A DNA stretch of 40,310 nt from the NCBI GenBank assembly GCA_030039675.1, contig JASHVE010000274.1, forward strand, positions 1 to 40,310, written 5' to 3'. Within the stretch, counting starts at the first letter, position 1, and every line of letters starts with the position of its first letter. Positions 1,967 to 35,290 of this stretch are shown piece by piece. The notes below the pieces were generated by a model. It did no database searches. It saw only the letters and a program-made list of their open reading frames with translations, and was not told where the DNA came from. Origin of the DNA: Acidobacteriaceae bacterium. GTDB taxonomy: Bacteria > Acidobacteriota > Terriglobia > Terriglobales > Acidobacteriaceae. Made by a program: the position numbers and the translations under genes.

Positions 1967-2344
1967 TTATGCAATGACCGGCAGCGTGGGAATGGAACCC
2001 TGCTGCTTGGCTTCGGCAACGACGGCGTCCAGGTGCTCGAGCACTTCTTCCACCGTCATCGTGTAGACCTCGCGCTGGGCGTCGTAGCCTTCTTCAATGA
2101 GTTGTTTCAGGTAGCGGCCGGCGATCTGCGCGGCGAGATAGTCGGTAATGACTTTGCCGCTGCGCTTCTTCTGTTCCACCCACGCTGTGCAGGGCAAGGC
2201 GATCCACATGGGGCGCCCGTTTACGTCGAAGCGAATATCGACGGCGTCGGCGTGGCGGGTGGCGATGGCCACCATGGTGCCCTTCCAGTGGATGTGCAGG
2301 TCCTCTCCGGTCCAGCGGTCGGCGACGTGGAAATCCTCGTACAT
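1967..2344 (-). CDS. Unknown 125-residue protein
   Basis: I do not recognise this gene. It encodes 125 residues, acidic and tryptophan-containing, without signal peptide or membrane segment. The N-terminal half (through ALPCTAWVEQKKRSG) looks like a small beta domain, and the C-terminal half (ITDYLAAQIAGRYLKQLIEEGY onward) is helical. No catalytic motif stands out. The coding frame is well behaved and precedes the nucleotidyltransferase by only 32 bases on the same strand, so co-transcription is likely. There is no convincing Shine-Dalgarno sequence before the ATG. A role in the same sugar pathway is possible only by context. Confidence 0.65.
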   Translation of the reverse strand: MYEDFHVADRWTGEDLHIHWKGTMVAIATRHADAVDIRFDVNGRPMWIALPCTAWVEQKKRSGKVITDYLAAQIAGRYLKQLIEEGYDAQREVYTMTVEEVLEHLDAVVAEAKQQGSIPTLPVIA

Positions 2345-2363
2345 AGACTTAGGTTACCGCTCC

Positions 2364-2409
2364 GGAGTGCCCACGGCAAGCGGGACGGAGTGCCCACGGC
2401 AAGTGGGAC
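2364..2409. repeat. Tandem duplication of a 23-bp unit
   Basis: Two adjacent 23-bp copies (2364-2386 and 2387-2409) differ at one base. They lie upstream of the divergent gene pair at 2344 and 2607. The rest of this 262-bp gap includes ATGGGGCACCCG near 2476, which shares TGGGGCACCC with the hairpin at 19199-19230. No function is evident. Confidence 0.75.
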
Positions 2410-2606
2410 GGAACGGGAACGGCGAATCGAAGGTTTGTGCTCTCCCACCCTTGGCGCCAAAAAGCCGCGCCCAGGATGGGGCACCCGTTTGCCCTCTGGT
2501 GGACGCTCCTCTTGGCCCGCTGATAGACTAATTGGGTTGCAGTCGCAGTGATTCAGCCGTCTGGCCCCCGCCTGCAAGTCAATCAGCGAAGGATTAGAGA
2601 GAACCC

Positions 2607-3314
2607 GTGGATACGCAAACCCGTCACGCCCTGAAGCAAGACAAGTTCGCCCAGGCCGCCGCCAGCGGCGCCAGCTGGCTCAGCGACCACAGCGCCAGCG
2701 TTCTGCGTTGGGGGGTCAGTGTCGGCGTGGTTGTTGTGGTGGGCATTGCCGCCTCAATTTATTGGAACGTGCGGACATCGGCTGCGGATCTGGCGCTGGG
2801 CGCAGCCATCGATGTGTACAACTCTCCGTTGGCGCAACCCGGCGAGCCTCCCATGCCCGGCATCTACACTTCGGCGGCTGCGCGCGCCAAGGAAGCCAAT
2901 CGCCAGTTTGTCGCCGTAGCGCACGACTTTAGCTGGCTGCCGGAGGCGGCCAGGGCTCATTATTTCGCCGGAGTGACGTATGAAGATCTCGGTCAGAATG
3001 GCCCGGCCGAGAGCGAACTGAAGGCCGCTTCCGGCTCATCGAACCGCAATCTCTCCAACCTGGCCAAACTGGCGCTTGCCGGGCTCTATCATCAAATGGG
3101 CCGCGACGGTGAGGCGATCGCTCTTTACAATGAGCTGGTTGCCAAACCGTCGGAAACCGTCTCTGCGGCTGTGGCGCAGCTCGGTCTTGCCGATCTCTAC
3201 GTCGCGGAGGGCAAGCAGGAAGAGGCCCGGATGCTCTGGGCGAAGGTCAAGGACGCCGACAAGGACGGCGCAGCCGGCAACATCGCGTCGGAAAAGCTTT
3301 CCGCCAAACAGTAG
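2607..3314 (+). CDS. YfgM-like membrane-anchored TPR protein
   Basis: A 235-residue protein with a cytoplasmic N-terminus, one membrane segment at about residues 33-53 (WGVSVGVVVVVGIAASIYW) and a C-terminal TPR-like region, for example YFAGVTYEDLGQNGPAESEL and LYHQMGRDGEAIALYNELV. This is the architecture of YfgM/TPR_21 proteins, which in E. coli associate with the Sec translocon and periplasmic chaperones. The start is a GTG preceded by an AGAGAGA purine stretch. An ECF sigma factor gene follows after about 130 bases on the same strand, so a shared envelope-stress role is possible but not shown. Family placement rests on the architecture. Confidence 0.75.
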   Translation: MDTQTRHALKQDKFAQAAASGASWLSDHSASVLRWGVSVGVVVVVGIAASIYWNVRTSAADLALGAAIDVYNSPLAQPGEPPMPGIYTSAAARAKEANRQFVAVAHDFSWLPEAARAHYFAGVTYEDLGQNGPAESELKAASGSSNRNLSNLAKLALAGLYHQMGRDGEAIALYNELVAKPSETVSAAVAQLGLADLYVAEGKQEEARMLWAKVKDADKDGAAGNIASEKLSAKQ

Positions 3315-3442
3315 ACGGCTGCATTGGTATCATCTCCTCTCCCGTTTGACGCCTCCCGCGGGGTGGGCGTGCGTCTGAGCATTTTCCAATGTGCCTGCGT
3401 CTATTGTGCATGAGCACCGGCCAGGCAATTTTTGCAGGTTGG

Positions 3443-4003
3443 ATGGAGATTTCAAACAGCGCCGCGGCCGAAGATGCCCGCACCCGGGCGGAGGAAGCGG
3501 CCCTTGCGGCGCTGGTAGATCAGTACGCCAGCGCGCTCTATCGCGTGGCTTTTTCTGTCCTCCGCAATCCCGCCGATGCCGAAGACGCCGTGCAGGAAAC
3601 CTTTCTGCGCGTACTGCGGCATCGCGATACGCTGGATGAGGTCCGCGATCACCGCGTCTGGCTGATCCGTATCGTCTGGAACATCGTGCTGGACCGCAAG
3701 CGCCGCGCCAAAACCCGGCCTGAGACCGACGACGTGGCCGAACTGGTGCGCGTGCTACCCGCCAACGGGCTCTCAGCCGAAGAACGCGCCGCCGCCGCGC
3801 AGCATCACGCGCATGTGCTGGCCTGCGTCGAACAGCTTCCGCCGAAGGAGCGCGAAGTGTTGCAGCTCTCCGCCTTCGAGGAACTGTCGAGCGTGGAGAT
3901 CGCCGCGGTTCTCGGCATCACGGAATCCAGCGTTCGTTCGCGGCTTTTTCGCGCGCGCAATCTGATGGCAGGCCTGCTCAATCACGCGAGGAGTCTGCGA
4001 TGA
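3443..4003 (+). CDS. ECF-type RNA polymerase sigma factor
   Basis: A sigma-70 family factor of the ECF group with region 2 (QYASALYRVAFSVLRN then DAEDAVQETF, the core-binding and -10-recognition part) and region 4 (LPPKEREVLQLSAFEELSS with the helix-turn-helix VEIAAVLGITESSVRSRLFR). From the chosen ATG the protein is 186 residues, normal for the group. The frame is open further upstream to an ATG at 3389, but those residues are not sigma-like, so I prefer MEISNSAA. Its TGA overlaps the ATG of the next gene (ATGA), the usual arrangement of an ECF sigma and its regulator. Target promoters are unknown. Confidence 0.9.
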   Translation: MEISNSAAAEDARTRAEEAALAALVDQYASALYRVAFSVLRNPADAEDAVQETFLRVLRHRDTLDEVRDHRVWLIRIVWNIVLDRKRRAKTRPETDDVAELVRVLPANGLSAEERAAAAQHHAHVLACVEQLPPKEREVLQLSAFEELSSVEIAAVLGITESSVRSRLFRARNLMAGLLNHARSLR

Positions 4004-26126: not shown

Positions 26127-26450
26127 TTACCGCGCGCTCTCAATCTGCTCGGAGATCCAGCGGCTCAGGCTCACGCCTTCAGCCGCGGCACGCAGAGCTG
26201 CCTTGCGATGCAGTTCCGGCTCGGTACGCACCAGGATCTTGCCATTGAAGGGACGATCGGGCCTCTGGCCGTTCTCGGCGCAAAGCTCCAGATAGCTATC
26301 GATGCTTTCCCGAAAGGCCCGCGACAACTCTCTCGCTGTTGATCCTTCGAAGTGAATGACGTCCCTAAGCCCGGCAACGGTTCCGGAGAAAGTATTTTCT
26401 TCCGGATCGAAGTCGATTGGTCCGGCGGTATACCCCTTGTATTCCATCAT
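26127..26450 (-). CDS. hicB: HicB family antitoxin
   Basis: A 107-residue HicB antitoxin. The N-terminal half (YTAGPIDFDPEENTFSGTVAGLRDVIHFEGSTARELSRAFRESIDSYLEL) is the degenerate RNase-H-like domain that covers the toxin, and the C-terminus (GKILVRTEPELHRKAALRAAAEGVSLSRWISEQI) is a ribbon-helix-helix DNA-binding domain. Its ATG overlaps the TGA of hicA by four bases, so the pair is co-translated. As in other systems it probably represses the hicAB promoter. Confidence 0.9.
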   Translation of the reverse strand: MMEYKGYTAGPIDFDPEENTFSGTVAGLRDVIHFEGSTARELSRAFRESIDSYLELCAENGQRPDRPFNGKILVRTEPELHRKAALRAAAEGVSLSRWISEQIESAR

Positions 26451-26882: not shown

Positions 26883-28100
26883 ATGCCTCCCACTCTCTTC
26901 ATCTCGGCCGGCGAAGCCAGCGGCGAGCACTACGGCGCCCTGCTCATCGCCGCTCTCCGCCGCAAGCTCGGAGAAAACGCCCAATTCTTCGGAATGGGTG
27001 GCCCGCGAATGGAGGCCGCCGGTCTCGAACGCGTGGTGCGCGCCGAAGACATGGCGGTGATGGGTCTGACTGAAGTGTTGCTCCATCTGCCGCGCATCTA
27101 CCGGGAGTTCCGCAAGCTGAAGCGGGCCATCCGCGAGCGCAGGCCGGATGTCGCCGTACTCATCGACTTTCCGGAGATTCACCTCCGGCTGGCCAGGGAG
27201 TTCCACCGGCTGGGCATTCCTGTGATCTACTTTGTGAGCCCGCAGTTGTGGGCCTGGAAGAAGCATCGCATCAAGCTGGTGCAGCGATACGTCAGCCGGA
27301 TGTTGGTGATCTTTCCTTTCGAAGAGCTGTTTTACCGGGAGCGTCGCGTGCAGGCTGAGTTCGTGGGCCATCCATTGGCAGAGCTGCCGCCGCCCGCAGT
27401 CGGCGCCGCCCAGTTTGCGGCGGAAAATGGGCTCGATCCAGCCAAAATCTGGATCGGTTTGCTTCCCGGCAGCCGTGCCGGGGAGATCGGCGATCATCTG
27501 CCGGAGATATTGAAAGCCGCCCGTCTGCTCGCATCGCACCCGGGGGTGGCATTGGAGTTCATCGTGCCGCTGGCGCCTACGCTTCACCCTGCGCAGCGGG
27601 AGGATGTTGCACGCCTTGTTGCTCGGCACGGAACCGGCCTGGCGGTACGGCTGGTGAACGACGCACGCGCAACGCTTGCCCATGCCCGAGCATCCGTCGT
27701 AGCAAGCGGCACTGCAACGGTCGAGGCGGCGCTCATTGGTAATCCCTTTGTGGTCGTGTATCGGGTTTCGCCGCTAACCTATGCCATCGCCAAGCTCTTG
27801 GTGAAGGTGCCGCACGTGGCTATGGCCAACCTGATTGCCGGCAGAAGGGTGGTTCCGGAACTGATTCAGCGTGACTTCACGGCGGCAAATATCGTCCAAC
27901 AGATTGACCTTCTGCTACCCGACGGGGTGCCCCGACAGTCCATGATAGAGGGATTGGGGTCCATTCGTGACGCATTGGGAGTCCGGTCGCCCGGAGGCAG
28001 GAAGGAGCTTCCGGGCGCAATCGAGCGCGTAGCTGCCATTACACTTGAACAACTTGGGGTATCTCTGCGGGCGGCTGCAAACGAGGTTGCGCAGTCTTGA
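26883..28100 (+). CDS. lpxB: Lipid-A-disaccharide synthase
   Basis: A 405-residue GT19 glycosyltransferase that joins UDP-2,3-diacylglucosamine and lipid X in lipid A synthesis, acting at the inner membrane face. Recognisable segments are SAGEASGEHYGALLI at the N-terminus, VLIDFPEIHLRLAREFHRLGIPVIYFVSPQLWAWK, EFVGHPLAE, GLLPGSRAGEI and VASGTATVEAALIGNPFVVVYR. All conserved regions are present, confirming a lipopolysaccharide-bearing organism. TATGAT about 36 bases upstream is a possible -10 element. No other lpx gene adjoins it here. Confidence 0.95.
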   Translation: MPPTLFISAGEASGEHYGALLIAALRRKLGENAQFFGMGGPRMEAAGLERVVRAEDMAVMGLTEVLLHLPRIYREFRKLKRAIRERRPDVAVLIDFPEIHLRLAREFHRLGIPVIYFVSPQLWAWKKHRIKLVQRYVSRMLVIFPFEELFYRERRVQAEFVGHPLAELPPPAVGAAQFAAENGLDPAKIWIGLLPGSRAGEIGDHLPEILKAARLLASHPGVALEFIVPLAPTLHPAQREDVARLVARHGTGLAVRLVNDARATLAHARASVVASGTATVEAALIGNPFVVVYRVSPLTYAIAKLLVKVPHVAMANLIAGRRVVPELIQRDFTAANIVQQIDLLLPDGVPRQSMIEGLGSIRDALGVRSPGGRKELPGAIERVAAITLEQLGVSLRAAANEVAQS

Positions 28101-28155: not shown

Positions 28156-30174
28156 ATGATGATCTGGTTGCGTACACGAGAAGCGGGTTCGCGAGTTCGA
28201 AGCTTTCGGCCGATTCTTTTGGCCGTGCTGGGATTGCTGGCGGTCACAGCGCCGGTGCTTGCCCAGAGAGAGCGGGCGGCACTGAATATTACCGGCTATG
28301 TGATCGATGCCGAGCTGGACCCGGCCACGCATCACCTTGCAGCGACCACGACGGTGAGCTTCACCGCTCCGCCGAACCTGGACGTGGTCAACTTCGGCTT
28401 TCATCCGGCACTGAAGATCAGCAAGATCACCGACGCGAGCGGCAAGGTCCTGGACGGAGAACGCACCGCCGACGGATCGATCCGGGTCACCGCTTCATCG
28501 GCTTTCGCCGAGGGCCAGACCACTCGCTGGACCTTCGTCTACGACGGGACTATCACCGGCAATGAGGACGGTCCCATTGAAGGGCTCAAGCTGGCAGCCA
28601 TCCAGGAGCCGATCAGCTATCTGCTATATCCGTCGCGCTGGTTCCCCACCACCGGCTTTATGACCGACCGGTTCACCGCCGAGATGCATATCCGCGTTCC
28701 GCAGGGTGTGCGGGTGTTTGCGAGCGGCAGCACCGGGCCATCGCACTCCGTAACGCTTTCAGATGGCAAACCAGGCGATGAGTACGACTTCAGCTGGAAG
28801 AAGCCTGGGTTCCCGGGAACGGTGATCGCGGGACGGTACGTGGGGCCGGTCTCGGTGGGCCCCGGCAACGTGAAAGTGTATCTCACGGTCAGCCATCAGC
28901 AGTCGGGCAATCAAGTGGCGCAGACAGCGACCCGGGAGTACGACTTCTTTACTGACAGCTTCGGCGAGCTCGAAACCAGCCACCTGAATGTGGTGGAAAT
29001 GCCCGACGACGTGCTCTTTGCCGCATGGGCGCCAGAGCTGGCCGGCATTCCCGGCAATCGTACTGGCGACAAATCTTCAGTGCGCTGGCTGGCCAACACC
29101 ATCGCGCATCAGTGGTGGGGATGCGAAGTGAGCCCGCGCACGTTGAATGACGCTTGGATTACGAATGGCATGTCGCGCTATGGAGAGCTGATGTACGTGG
29201 AAGACGAGAGCGGCCGTAACGCGTTGAAGGCGGCGCTCGAAGACGTGTCGGCCGGCGCGTTGGCTTACGACACCATCCCGCTTTCAAGCGTCGGGCGGAT
29301 GGACCCGTTTTCGCCCCAGTTCCAGTCGATGACACTCGAGAAGGGCGCGATGATCTTTCACATGTTGCGCGGCGAAGTGGGCGACAAGACCTTTCTTCAG
29401 ATTCTCAAGGGAGCGTTGAGCCAGTATACCGATAGCTCGATCCGCACCGCGGACCTGGAAAAGGTGGCCGAAGCGCAGAGCCAGGAGCAGCTTACTCCGT
29501 TCTTTGCGCAGTGGATCGACGGCACGGGCGCGCCGAAGTTCACTGACAAGTATGCAGTCTACCGGCTGGGCAACAACAAAGGGTTCCGCACGATCGGTGA
29601 GATCAACCAGGACCTTGATCTTTTCCGCATGCCCGTTGACCTCCGCATCGAGACGGACGGCAAGACGGTGGACCAGAAGGTTGACGTGGTGGGAACCGAC
29701 ACGCAATACGTAGTGGACACCTTCGGCCGGCCGCGCCGGATCAGCATCGATCCCCAGGACTGGGTGCTCAAGACCACCCCGGATCTGCAGGTGCGGATCT
29801 CGATCCTGAAGGGGCAGCAACTGGTGGCGCAGGGTGACCTGGTGGGGGCGCTCGCCGAGTACCAGAAGGCGCTCACGGCCAATCCGCAGAGTTCGCTGGC
29901 CAGTTACCGCATCGGCGAGGTGCTGTTTACGCAGCGCAACTATCAGGCCAGCGTCAACGCCTTTCGCGACGCGCTGCGCGGGGACGATGAGCCGGCGTGG
30001 ACCGAGGTCTGGAGCCACATCGCCATCGGCAAGATCTTCGATATCACCGGGCAGCGGGACCGCGCGGTAAACGAGTACCGGCTTGCCGTGCAGACCAACG
30101 ACAATACGCAGGGCGCCGTAAACGAAGCTCGACTCTACCTGCAGAAACCTTACACACGGCCCGACAACGAGTGA
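28156..30174 (+). CDS. M1-aminopeptidase-like pseudoenzyme with TPR tail, exported
   Basis: A 672-residue exported protein with a signal peptide (LLAVLGLLAVTAPVLAQ), a beta-rich N-terminal domain, a gluzincin-like domain and a C-terminal TPR pair (about 560-665: GALAEYQKALTANPQSSLASYRIGEVLF and following). The metal site aligns as NTIAHQWWG (314-322) against HELAHQWFG and ITNGMSRY (335-342) against LNEGFASY. His314-equivalent is Asn, the catalytic Glu is Thr315 and the third ligand is Asn337; only His318 is kept. The product is therefore probably not a peptidase. The frame is intact with no frameshift, so it is a conserved pseudoenzyme rather than a decayed gene. Function is unknown. Confidence 0.82.
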   Translation: MMIWLRTREAGSRVRSFRPILLAVLGLLAVTAPVLAQRERAALNITGYVIDAELDPATHHLAATTTVSFTAPPNLDVVNFGFHPALKISKITDASGKVLDGERTADGSIRVTASSAFAEGQTTRWTFVYDGTITGNEDGPIEGLKLAAIQEPISYLLYPSRWFPTTGFMTDRFTAEMHIRVPQGVRVFASGSTGPSHSVTLSDGKPGDEYDFSWKKPGFPGTVIAGRYVGPVSVGPGNVKVYLTVSHQQSGNQVAQTATREYDFFTDSFGELETSHLNVVEMPDDVLFAAWAPELAGIPGNRTGDKSSVRWLANTIAHQWWGCEVSPRTLNDAWITNGMSRYGELMYVEDESGRNALKAALEDVSAGALAYDTIPLSSVGRMDPFSPQFQSMTLEKGAMIFHMLRGEVGDKTFLQILKGALSQYTDSSIRTADLEKVAEAQSQEQLTPFFAQWIDGTGAPKFTDKYAVYRLGNNKGFRTIGEINQDLDLFRMPVDLRIETDGKTVDQKVDVVGTDTQYVVDTFGRPRRISIDPQDWVLKTTPDLQVRISILKGQQLVAQGDLVGALAEYQKALTANPQSSLASYRIGEVLFTQRNYQASVNAFRDALRGDDEPAWTEVWSHIAIGKIFDITGQRDRAVNEYRLAVQTNDNTQGAVNEARLYLQKPYTRPDNE

Positions 30175-33420: not shown

Positions 33421-33506
33421 CGGCGAAAGATTTGGCGGACGACCGATCATCCGCCCATCGGTGGCTCAACCAAGGTAGGAGTTGGCCTTCCTGCTTTCCC
33501 GGCGTT

Positions 33507-33512
33507 TACAAT
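33507..33512 (+). promoter_or_regulatory. -10 element before the PPIase gene
   Basis: TACAAT, 51 bases upstream of the preferred ATG. It lies inside the longer open frame from 33482 and argues against that earlier start. Confidence 0.4.
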
Positions 33513-33562
33513 GGCGTCTATGCACTAAGCGGCTGCGGATGGCCGCTTCGCGCGCTGAACCT

Positions 33563-35290
33563 ATGACTTTCAGACTTTTCCTCGCTCCTGCTGCGTTCGG
33601 CACCTTGCTTGCCGTTGCGACTCTTCCGGCGCAAGCCCAGAACAACGCGCCGGCCAGCCCTTACGGCGGCTCGATAGTCGAAGACATCATCGCCCGCGTC
33701 AACGACCAAATCATCACCCAGTCCGACTATGACCGCGCGATGAGCGAGATGGACCAGGAAGCGCGTCAGCACGACGAGACAATGCAGCAGATGGCCGCCG
33801 AGCACAAGGACCTGCTGCGCAGCCTGATCGATCAGCAGCTTTGGCTCTCTAAGGGTAAGGAGCTTGGCATCACCGGTGATACGGAGCTCGTAAAGCGGCT
33901 CGATGAGATCCGCAAGCAGTACAATCTCGACTCGCTGGAGGACCTGGAAAAGGCCGCGAAAGAGCAGGGCGTCTCATTCGAGGACTTCAAGGCCAACATC
34001 CGCAATGGCATCATCACGCAGGAGGTGATGCGCCAGGAGGTAGGTGAGCACATTCAGTTCACACCCGGCGAGGCGATGCGCTACTACGACGCGCACAAGC
34101 AGGACTACACGCAGCCGGAAAGCGAAAGGTTAAGCGAGATTCTCATCGCCGCCAATGCAGACGATTCCGCGAAGCAGGCTGCGGCCAAGACGAAGGCCGA
34201 CGATATCGAGGCCCGCCTGCACGCCGGCGGCGACTTTGCCCAGTTGGCGCGCAGCTTCAGCGAAGGGCCAACCGCCGGCGAGGGAGGCGACTTGGGCCAG
34301 TACAAGCACGGCCAGTTGCCCAAGGCGCTCGAAGACAAAACATTCTCGCTCAATACAGGGCAATACACCGATCCGATCCTGACTCGCCAGGGCTATATCA
34401 TCCTCAAGGTCGTGCAGCACAACGCCGGCGGTCCGGCCCCCTACAAGGACGTGGAGCAGCAGGTCGAAGAATCTCTCTACGAGAGCCGCATGGAGCCTGC
34501 GATTCGTGCATATCTGAACAAGATGCGTGACGAGGCCGCGATCTTCATCAAACCGGGCTACGTGGACACCGGCGCAACCTACGCCGAGCTGCATCCGAGC
34601 GTCTCGTTCAGCGCCTACGTTCCACCCGCTCCCAAGAAGAAGGCCAAGGTAGAGCGCACGCGTTTCCGCGAAAGCACGCACACCTTCCGGCAGAAGTCCC
34701 CGCAGGAGGCAGCGCCCGAGGAGGCTGCAGCTCCAGCCTCGCAGCAAGCTGCTCCCGCGAAGGGAAAGAAGAACAAGAAGGATAAGAACACCGAGGTAGC
34801 CACCGAGAAGCCCGGCAAGAAGGAAAAAATTCGTTTTGGCCAGGCTCCACGTGAGACTTTGCCCGCGGCAGCCAATAACTCGGCAACCGAAAATGCAGGC
34901 GCCTTGCCGGAGACGGCCGATAACTCGCAGCAGCCGGTGAATCCGCTGGAACCGACGCGGTCAGCGGAGAAGACCCGGTTCAGCGATCGCGCCCGTACAG
35001 CGAAGAAGGGCAAGTCGAAGCAGGCGTCACTGATGGATGCGGATGCGCCCGCGCCACCTGACGCCGCGGAAGTGGCCGACCAGGAGACGCAGTCAGCTCC
35101 GCTGGGACTGGGCGGTGACACGTCCGCCAAGAAGAAGAAAAAGGCCCAAACGACCAGCGAGAAGACCCGCCTGGCCGATAAGAAAAAGACAGCGTCCGAT
35201 TCGACCGCTACTCCGCCGCCACAGCCAACGCCGATCGCTCCGGTGCCGGGAGCTCCCGCTCCGGCGGACGCGCCGAAGCCGCAACAGTAA
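33563..35290 (+). CDS. SurA-like periplasmic PPIase with long basic C-terminal tail
   Basis: A 575-residue exported chaperone. After the signal peptide (MTFRLFLAPAAFGTLLAVATLPAQAQ) come a SurA N-terminal helical domain (VEDIIARVNDQIITQSDYDRAMSEMDQ...) and one parvulin domain (ERLSEILIAAN ... FAQLARSFSEGPTAGEGGDLGQYKHGQLPKALEDKTFSL ... GYIILKV). The last 215 or so residues are Ala/Pro/Lys-rich and include four copies of an E-[KR]-[TI]-R-[FL] motif (near nucleotides 34650, 34825, 34963 and 35153). SurA-type proteins guide outer-membrane proteins; the tail is unusual and may bind the envelope or nucleic acid. The earlier ATG at 33482 lies upstream of the likely promoter, so 33563 (or 33539) is preferred. 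Confidence 0.85.
   Translation: MTFRLFLAPAAFGTLLAVATLPAQAQNNAPASPYGGSIVEDIIARVNDQIITQSDYDRAMSEMDQEARQHDETMQQMAAEHKDLLRSLIDQQLWLSKGKELGITGDTELVKRLDEIRKQYNLDSLEDLEKAAKEQGVSFEDFKANIRNGIITQEVMRQEVGEHIQFTPGEAMRYYDAHKQDYTQPESERLSEILIAANADDSAKQAAAKTKADDIEARLHAGGDFAQLARSFSEGPTAGEGGDLGQYKHGQLPKALEDKTFSLNTGQYTDPILTRQGYIILKVVQHNAGGPAPYKDVEQQVEESLYESRMEPAIRAYLNKMRDEAAIFIKPGYVDTGATYAELHPSVSFSAYVPPAPKKKAKVERTRFRESTHTFRQKSPQEAAPEEAAAPASQQAAPAKGKKNKKDKNTEVATEKPGKKEKIRFGQAPRETLPAAANNSATENAGALPETADNSQQPVNPLEPTRSAEKTRFSDRARTAKKGKSKQASLMDADAPAPPDAAEVADQETQSAPLGLGGDTSAKKKKKAQTTSEKTRLADKKKTASDSTATPPPQPTPIAPVPGAPAPADAPKPQQ

Follow-up and report, generated by a model that had tools for sequence, protein, structure and literature searches.

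Gene and Domain Layout

The window analyzed here, a stretch of 40,310 nucleotides of contig JASHVE010000274.1 from an Acidobacteriaceae bacterium, contains a gene of 672 codons located immediately downstream of lpxB on the same strand (table 1). The reading frame starts with ATG. It is unbroken, as the initial annotation had described, and the encoded protein combines the body of an M1 peptidase with a C-terminal TPR domain, an attachment that had also been recognized from the start. We refer to this protein and its homologs as the M1-TPR family. The Pfam Peptidase_M1 profile matched residues 313 to 453 above the cutoff, with an E-value of 7.4e-13. A putative cleavage site follows the hydrophobic segment near the N-terminus, and the residues AQ at this place are part of the family consensus. 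Residues 1 to 27 were disordered in the AlphaFold2 model, and the protein is apparently exported.

Table 1. Positions of the features discussed, numbered from the first nucleotide of the window
Feature	Position	Strand	Basis
HNH-type protein, 182 aa	25548..26096	+	CxxC pairs
HicB-family protein	26127..26450	-	PF05534, E=1.4e-18
lpxB, lipid-A-disaccharide synthase	26883..28100	+	Pfam LpxB, E=3.4e-91; 55 bp upstream of the M1-TPR gene
M1-TPR pseudopeptidase gene, 672 aa	28156..30174	+	ORF, AlphaFold2 model
Probable Sec signal peptide, approximately residues 1-36	28156..28263	+	ILLAVLGLLAV hydrophobic stretch, then VLA/Q; read by eye
M1 N-terminal β domain, residues 44-243	28285..28884	+	Model secondary structure, profile alignment to canonical M1
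Gluzincin (thermolysin-like) domain without zinc site, residues 245-455	28888..29520	+	Pfam, Foldseek
Place of the GAMEN exopeptidase motif, F288-A-A-W-A292	29017..29031	+	Profile alignment
Erased HExxH, N314-T-I-A-H318	29095..29109	+	Sequence, profile alignments
N337, replacing the third zinc ligand Glu	29164..29166	+	Sequence, profile alignments
L394, replacing the catalytic Tyr	29335..29337	+	Sequence comparison
M1-type β-sandwich domain, residues 463-531	29542..29748	+	AlphaFold2 model; present too in paralog L150
TPR domain, residues 542-663, at the place of helical M1 domain IV	29779..30144	+	Best-conserved part of the family
surA	33482..35290		
DUF1570/TPR protein, 611 aa	36449..38284	+	

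The AlphaFold2 model, built from an alignment of 102 sequences, showed a confident M1 fold (pLDDT 93, pTM 0.90). The best Foldseek match in the PDB was IRAP, with an E-value of 1e-29 and a TM-score of 0.64 by query length, followed by ERAP1/2 and then by chain 7edx_B of TFIID, which we take to be TAF2, given the literature on its aminopeptidase-like domain. These alignments covered nearly the whole query at an rmsd of about 9 to 10 Å, which suggests that the TPR domain occupies the place of helical domain IV. No TPR domain was present in the paralogous M1 proteins.

It was also noted that the HNH-type protein encoded upstream of lpxB is weakly similar to PtuB and to the HNH region of Cas9, and that its neighbor belongs to the HicB family. 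Membership of the M1-TPR gene in a defense system was rejected, as there was no PADLOC match. A relation to LapB/YciM was likewise rejected, since the match scored 16.5 bits with the NCBIfam LapB profile, whose cutoff is 474, and represents a generic TPR signal.

The Zinc Site Is Erased

The sequence at the zinc site reads NTIAH followed by QWWG, and 18 residues separate H318 from N337. Two profile-profile alignments, one against the canonical M1 protein of the same genome (L001; E=1e-19) and one against a closer M1 paralog from the same class (L150; E=2e-51), placed NTIAH on HEMAH/HEIAH and N337 on the glutamate that serves as the third ligand. Both alignments bear out the proposal, made when the gene was first annotated, that the catalytic glutamate and two of the three zinc ligands have been lost. 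The genome contained one other M1 match, which had an intact site, and inspection of the 672 residues revealed no HExxH elsewhere in the chain.

Two other signatures of an active M1 peptidase, which the initial annotation did not list, were also absent. The GAMEN motif is replaced by FAAWA, with W291 at the position of the GAMEN glutamate; E281, which is invariant among close relatives, was rejected as a substitute because it aligns several residues earlier. The position of the catalytic tyrosine of the Y-x-K-G motif, before KG, is occupied by a leucine. The GAMEN glutamate anchors the peptide N-terminus in M1 aminopeptidases, and its loss means that the usual chemistry of N-terminus binding is gone. 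The protein has the M1 fold, but the residues needed for the usual M1 mechanism are missing from its sequence.

Among 90 homologs from the genus and family, N314, T315, and N337 were conserved in 98%, 99%, and 99% of the sequences, respectively, so that the altered motif is itself a conserved feature of the lineage. The sole remaining ligand, H318, was conserved in only 82% and replaced by arginine in the rest, including 16 sequences with the NTRN combination and several others of the same lineage, which argues that it has not been retained as a ligand. An alternative metal site was rejected, as the alignment of 102 sequences contained no invariant cluster of histidine, cysteine, and acidic residues in the cleft, and the reading of an erased site therefore stands. 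The loss of catalysis is well supported, and we consider it almost certain that the 672-aa protein is not a zinc peptidase.

Family Distribution and Copy Number

A match to the 672-aa protein was identified in 94 of 99 related genomes, and in all 64 of those of good quality. Across the phylum, 132 of the 396 Acidobacteriota genomes sampled contained exactly one match at E≤1e-40, and the family is mostly single-copy. A scan of GTDB genomes, which covered the range of close relatives only, yielded matches that were almost all in acidobacterial records. A homolog was present in Terracidiphilus gabretensis (NZ_LAIJ01000009.1, L074). The 672-aa protein shares with the family the M1 body, the C-terminal TPR domain with P613, W615, and D629, and the place behind lpxB. 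We found no description of a bacterial M1-TPR family in the open-access literature, to which the search was confined.

A few records differed from the general pattern. Terriglobus roseus DSM 18391 (NC_018014.1) contained the gene at 2 places about 460 kb apart (L106 and L111), within stretches of 9.9 kb that are equal in length and 93% identical position by position and represent a duplicated segment; elsewhere the gene was single-copy. A contig titled Rhodanobacteraceae (CAJCHN010000134.1, L104) contained an M1-TPR gene with 60% identity and is probably from a mislabeled acidobacterial MAG. In 3 other records (L145, L142, and L144), the frames were 993 to 1,153 amino acids, far longer than the family norm, which could reflect fusions, insertions, or long open frames upstream.

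Repeated Loss of the Catalytic Residues

The full set of catalytic residues (H-E-H-E) was kept in 16 of 255 distinct M1-TPR members. The states at the 4 positions differed by lineage and included NTHN, NTHD/NAHD, DEQY, QEQH, NQRN, KTHD, REYQ, RRYD, RRRD, and KRRE, among others. The members with HEHE were L119 in family f11, L132 and L308 in family f10, and many of the proteins in family f5, where neighbors with HEHD, HERD, TEHE, LERD, and YANA also occurred. Judged from these sequences, the mixed states in family f5 appear to show the zinc site caught in the middle of its loss. An intact HExxH was thus found in distant members at the same place in the chain and nowhere in the genus and family of the 672-aa protein.

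The GAMEN motif was present in none of the M1-TPR members, those with HEHE included. At least 2 of the HEHE members (L280 and L282) also keep the catalytic tyrosine and are the best candidates for surviving enzymes; with 16 members that retain HExxH...E, some may still be enzymes. A further distant protein (L275) has HEHE and columns that align with the TPR domain, but its branch is very long and groups with the outgroups, and its membership in the family is uncertain.

We inferred a tree from which the catalytic columns were left out and which was rooted with active M1 paralogs. Members with an intact site were located in 3 nested, separate places. If loss is irreversible, the resolved tree requires 15 losses, a number that decreases to 11 to 12 when the weak forks are collapsed, and to 8 to 10 when, in addition, only the 2 histidines are counted. 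We estimate that the site would have been lost independently roughly 8 to 15 times if regain is impossible, and this range is approximate because the tree was built by a quick method and contains some weak forks. Irreversibility is a reasonable but not proven assumption. Unordered parsimony, which allows regain, gave as few as 4 changes on a smaller tree, and such a history would require several re-inventions of the same 4 residues. What was originally described as one oddity is therefore part of a recurrent process across the phylum.

It was also noted that sequences that have lost the site and have an acid at position 337 contained lysine or arginine at position 314 or 318 in 47 of 62 cases, compared with 59 of 173 where position 337 has no acid, although the sequences are not independent of each other. 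A basic residue facing Asp/Glu337 would fit with a salt bridge that stands in for the metal.

Linkage to lpxB

The lpxB gene was located directly upstream of the M1-TPR gene on the same strand in 109 of 115 close loci, 28 of 33 class-level loci, 71 of 110 phylum-level loci, and 31 of 33 further loci, counts that are not independent since some loci represent the same gene fetched twice. This arrangement was observed in most lineages, including those that look active. On the 5' side of lpxB, some lineages have a gene for an ABC transporter resembling MsbA or an acyltransferase resembling LpxL, and others a tRNA-modification gene. The linkage was missing in the lineage with REYQ and in family f4, and is thus not obligatory.

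The lpxB gene was present in 363 of the 396 genomes of the phylum versus 132 for the M1-TPR gene, which shows that the M1-TPR protein is no general requirement for lipid A. With lpxB nearly universal, co-occurrence is uninformative and only the gene order carries information. The surA gene in the window is located further downstream, and a SurA/Ctp neighborhood was rejected as context for the M1-TPR gene, since it was not conserved in the flanks that were fetched from relatives.

Proposed Function

We propose that the 672-aa protein is an exported, catalytically dead scaffold or adaptor with an M1 fold, tied to lipid A or outer-membrane biogenesis, in which the TPR and β-sandwich domains are the working part; we rate this as an even chance. 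The M1 body would serve as a rigid, bowl-shaped support in the periplasm, and a partner involved in the biogenesis of lipid A/LPS or the outer membrane would be gripped by the TPR end-module, in which P613, W615, and D629 are invariant. The retention of the gene immediately after lpxB is the reason for proposing such a partner. If cutting is dispensable for such a job, the zinc site would have drifted off separately in one lineage after another, and in many cases Arg/Lys at a histidine position opposite Asp/Glu337 would have replaced the charge of the metal. Gene order and export suggest the envelope role, and our confidence in an envelope scaffold linked to lipid A or outer-membrane biogenesis falls just short of even. 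Both the apparent signal peptide and the conserved adjacency to lpxB lend support to the initial suggestion of an envelope partner. More tentatively, the family as a whole may be an unrecognized, operon-linked component of lipid A or outer-membrane assembly, that is, a periplasmic M1-derived scaffold present across the phylum, in which the metal site disappeared on a dozen occasions and a non-catalytic function persisted, with the intermediates HEHE, HEHD, HERD, TEHE, LERD, and YANA in family f5.

The distribution of constraint bears on which part of the protein is at work. Compared with relatives of 82% to 90% identity, dN/dS was 0.056 to 0.105 overall, with dS near saturation, and was lowest in the TPR domain (0.025 to 0.059); the protein is maintained by selection. 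The mean column conservation decreased from 0.61 in the TPR domain to 0.55 in the β-sandwich and 0.42 to 0.51 in the M1 body, which makes the β-sandwich and TPR domains the most constrained part. The invariant columns in the alignment of 102 sequences were W162, P164, K396, W453, G481, P493, D532, P613, W615, and D629. The higher conservation of the TPR domain argues against the possibility that the working surface is the empty M1 cleft rather than the TPR domain, with the protein acting as a periplasmic holdase, or regulating an active protease, by binding peptides or unfolded proteins that are secreted or belong to the outer membrane. The residues of the cleft wall (QWW, D332, W334, G338, and K396) are kept across the phylum, which would agree with such a function but is equally explicable by the core of the fold, and the glutamate of GAMEN is absent from all members. 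A precedent is yeast Tma108, which binds nascent chains through its substrate pocket and may be non-enzymatic (PMC11266112). The presence of surA in the window points in the same direction, yet no such linkage was seen in relatives. We regard a working cleft as unlikely, if the most credible of the alternatives.

Another explanation is that the protein functions in the envelope or is secreted with no role in lipid A, in which case the gene would follow lpxB through inherited order, with no functional meaning. This would account for the REYQ lineage, in which the protein is kept and the linkage is missing, and for the difference in distribution between the near-universal lpxB and the M1-TPR gene. 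However, the same-strand adjacency persists across lineages in which the protein identity is only about 25% to 35%, whereas the remaining neighbors vary, and other lipid A genes are among the partners 5' of lpxB, so that we find this explanation improbable. That the protein is still a hydrolase, acting through H318, another metal site, or different chemistry, is very improbable: H318 is retained in most of its own lineage and some members elsewhere have an intact site, but arginine takes its place in many close relatives, the cleft has no invariant metal-binding cluster, and the catalytic glutamate, the tyrosine, and the GAMEN glutamate are all lost. Apart from the lost site itself, nothing speaks for a decaying gene or an assembly or sequencing error, a reading of negligible probability that was rejected on the basis of the unbroken frame, the identical letters in dozens of relatives, the confident fold, and a dN/dS of about 0.06 to 0.10.

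Comparison with Known Systems

The proposed scaffold shares the β saddle, the thermolysin-like domain, and the β-sandwich with M1 peptidases such as IRAP, ERAP1/2, APN, and PepN (clan MA gluzincins), but differs in having no HExxH, third-ligand glutamate, GAMEN, or catalytic tyrosine, and in the TPR domain that seems to replace helical domain IV. The closest zinc-bearing relatives found were bacterial M1 paralogs from the same class that lack GAMEN (L150 and L273 type). The alignment with L150 covered residues 39 to 540 at 27% identity; neither protein has GAMEN. The family is related to zinc-bearing M1 proteins. In contrast to the 672-aa protein, the paralogs of this type keep HExxH...E and the tyrosine, and their chain ends after the sandwich with no TPR domain.

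Pseudoproteases are well known in eukaryotes. For the M1 fold, TAF2 and possibly Tma108 are the known precedents for a function that involves no cutting, and neither is bacterial (PMC6220335, PMC11266112). TAF2 uses the M1-like architecture of 4 subdomains as a scaffold in TFIID (PMC6220335), but is nuclear and eukaryotic and has another C-terminal part, and no recent common origin is implied. Tma108, an M1 homolog found on nascent chains for which a non-cutting mode of action has been proposed (PMC11266112), retains the zinc site, the only missing element being a substrate-binding residue, whereas the M1-TPR family has lost the zinc site itself, repeatedly. The likeness to both was seen in the fold only.

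A bacterial family of M1 pseudopeptidases that is spread across a phylum, with many independent losses and living intermediates, would be a rare system in which to ask how an enzyme becomes a scaffold. If the interpretation is correct, nature has run the experiment of stripping the metal site from a single family of orthologous enzymes while a non-catalytic function was retained, and the conserved link to lpxB hints at a possible new envelope component in an abundant, little-studied soil phylum. Annotation pipelines would label these genes as M1 peptidases; the majority of those examined cannot be conventional zinc peptidases.

The window also contains, 6 kb downstream, a gene for a DUF1570/TPR protein that resembles the M1-TPR protein in being exported-looking and gluzincin-like with TPRs. 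Unlike the M1-TPR protein, it keeps HEYTH...LNEG and is probably an active enzyme.

Finally, the search for relatives of the TPR end-module identified acidobacterial proteins of about 500 amino acids (L310, positions 2222-3763; L312, 2086-3573; L313, 1727-3289; all on the minus strand) that share the pattern WSHxxLGRxxD...DNTxxA...PF. No confident family, and with it no functional hint for the end-module, was found for the N-terminal parts of L310-L313. These parts contain stretches like HQFLH, HAYLH, and HQYLH, with a weak match to DUF4932 in L312 (E=0.014), and the proteins are possibly a second family that combines a dead metallopeptidase site with TPRs.
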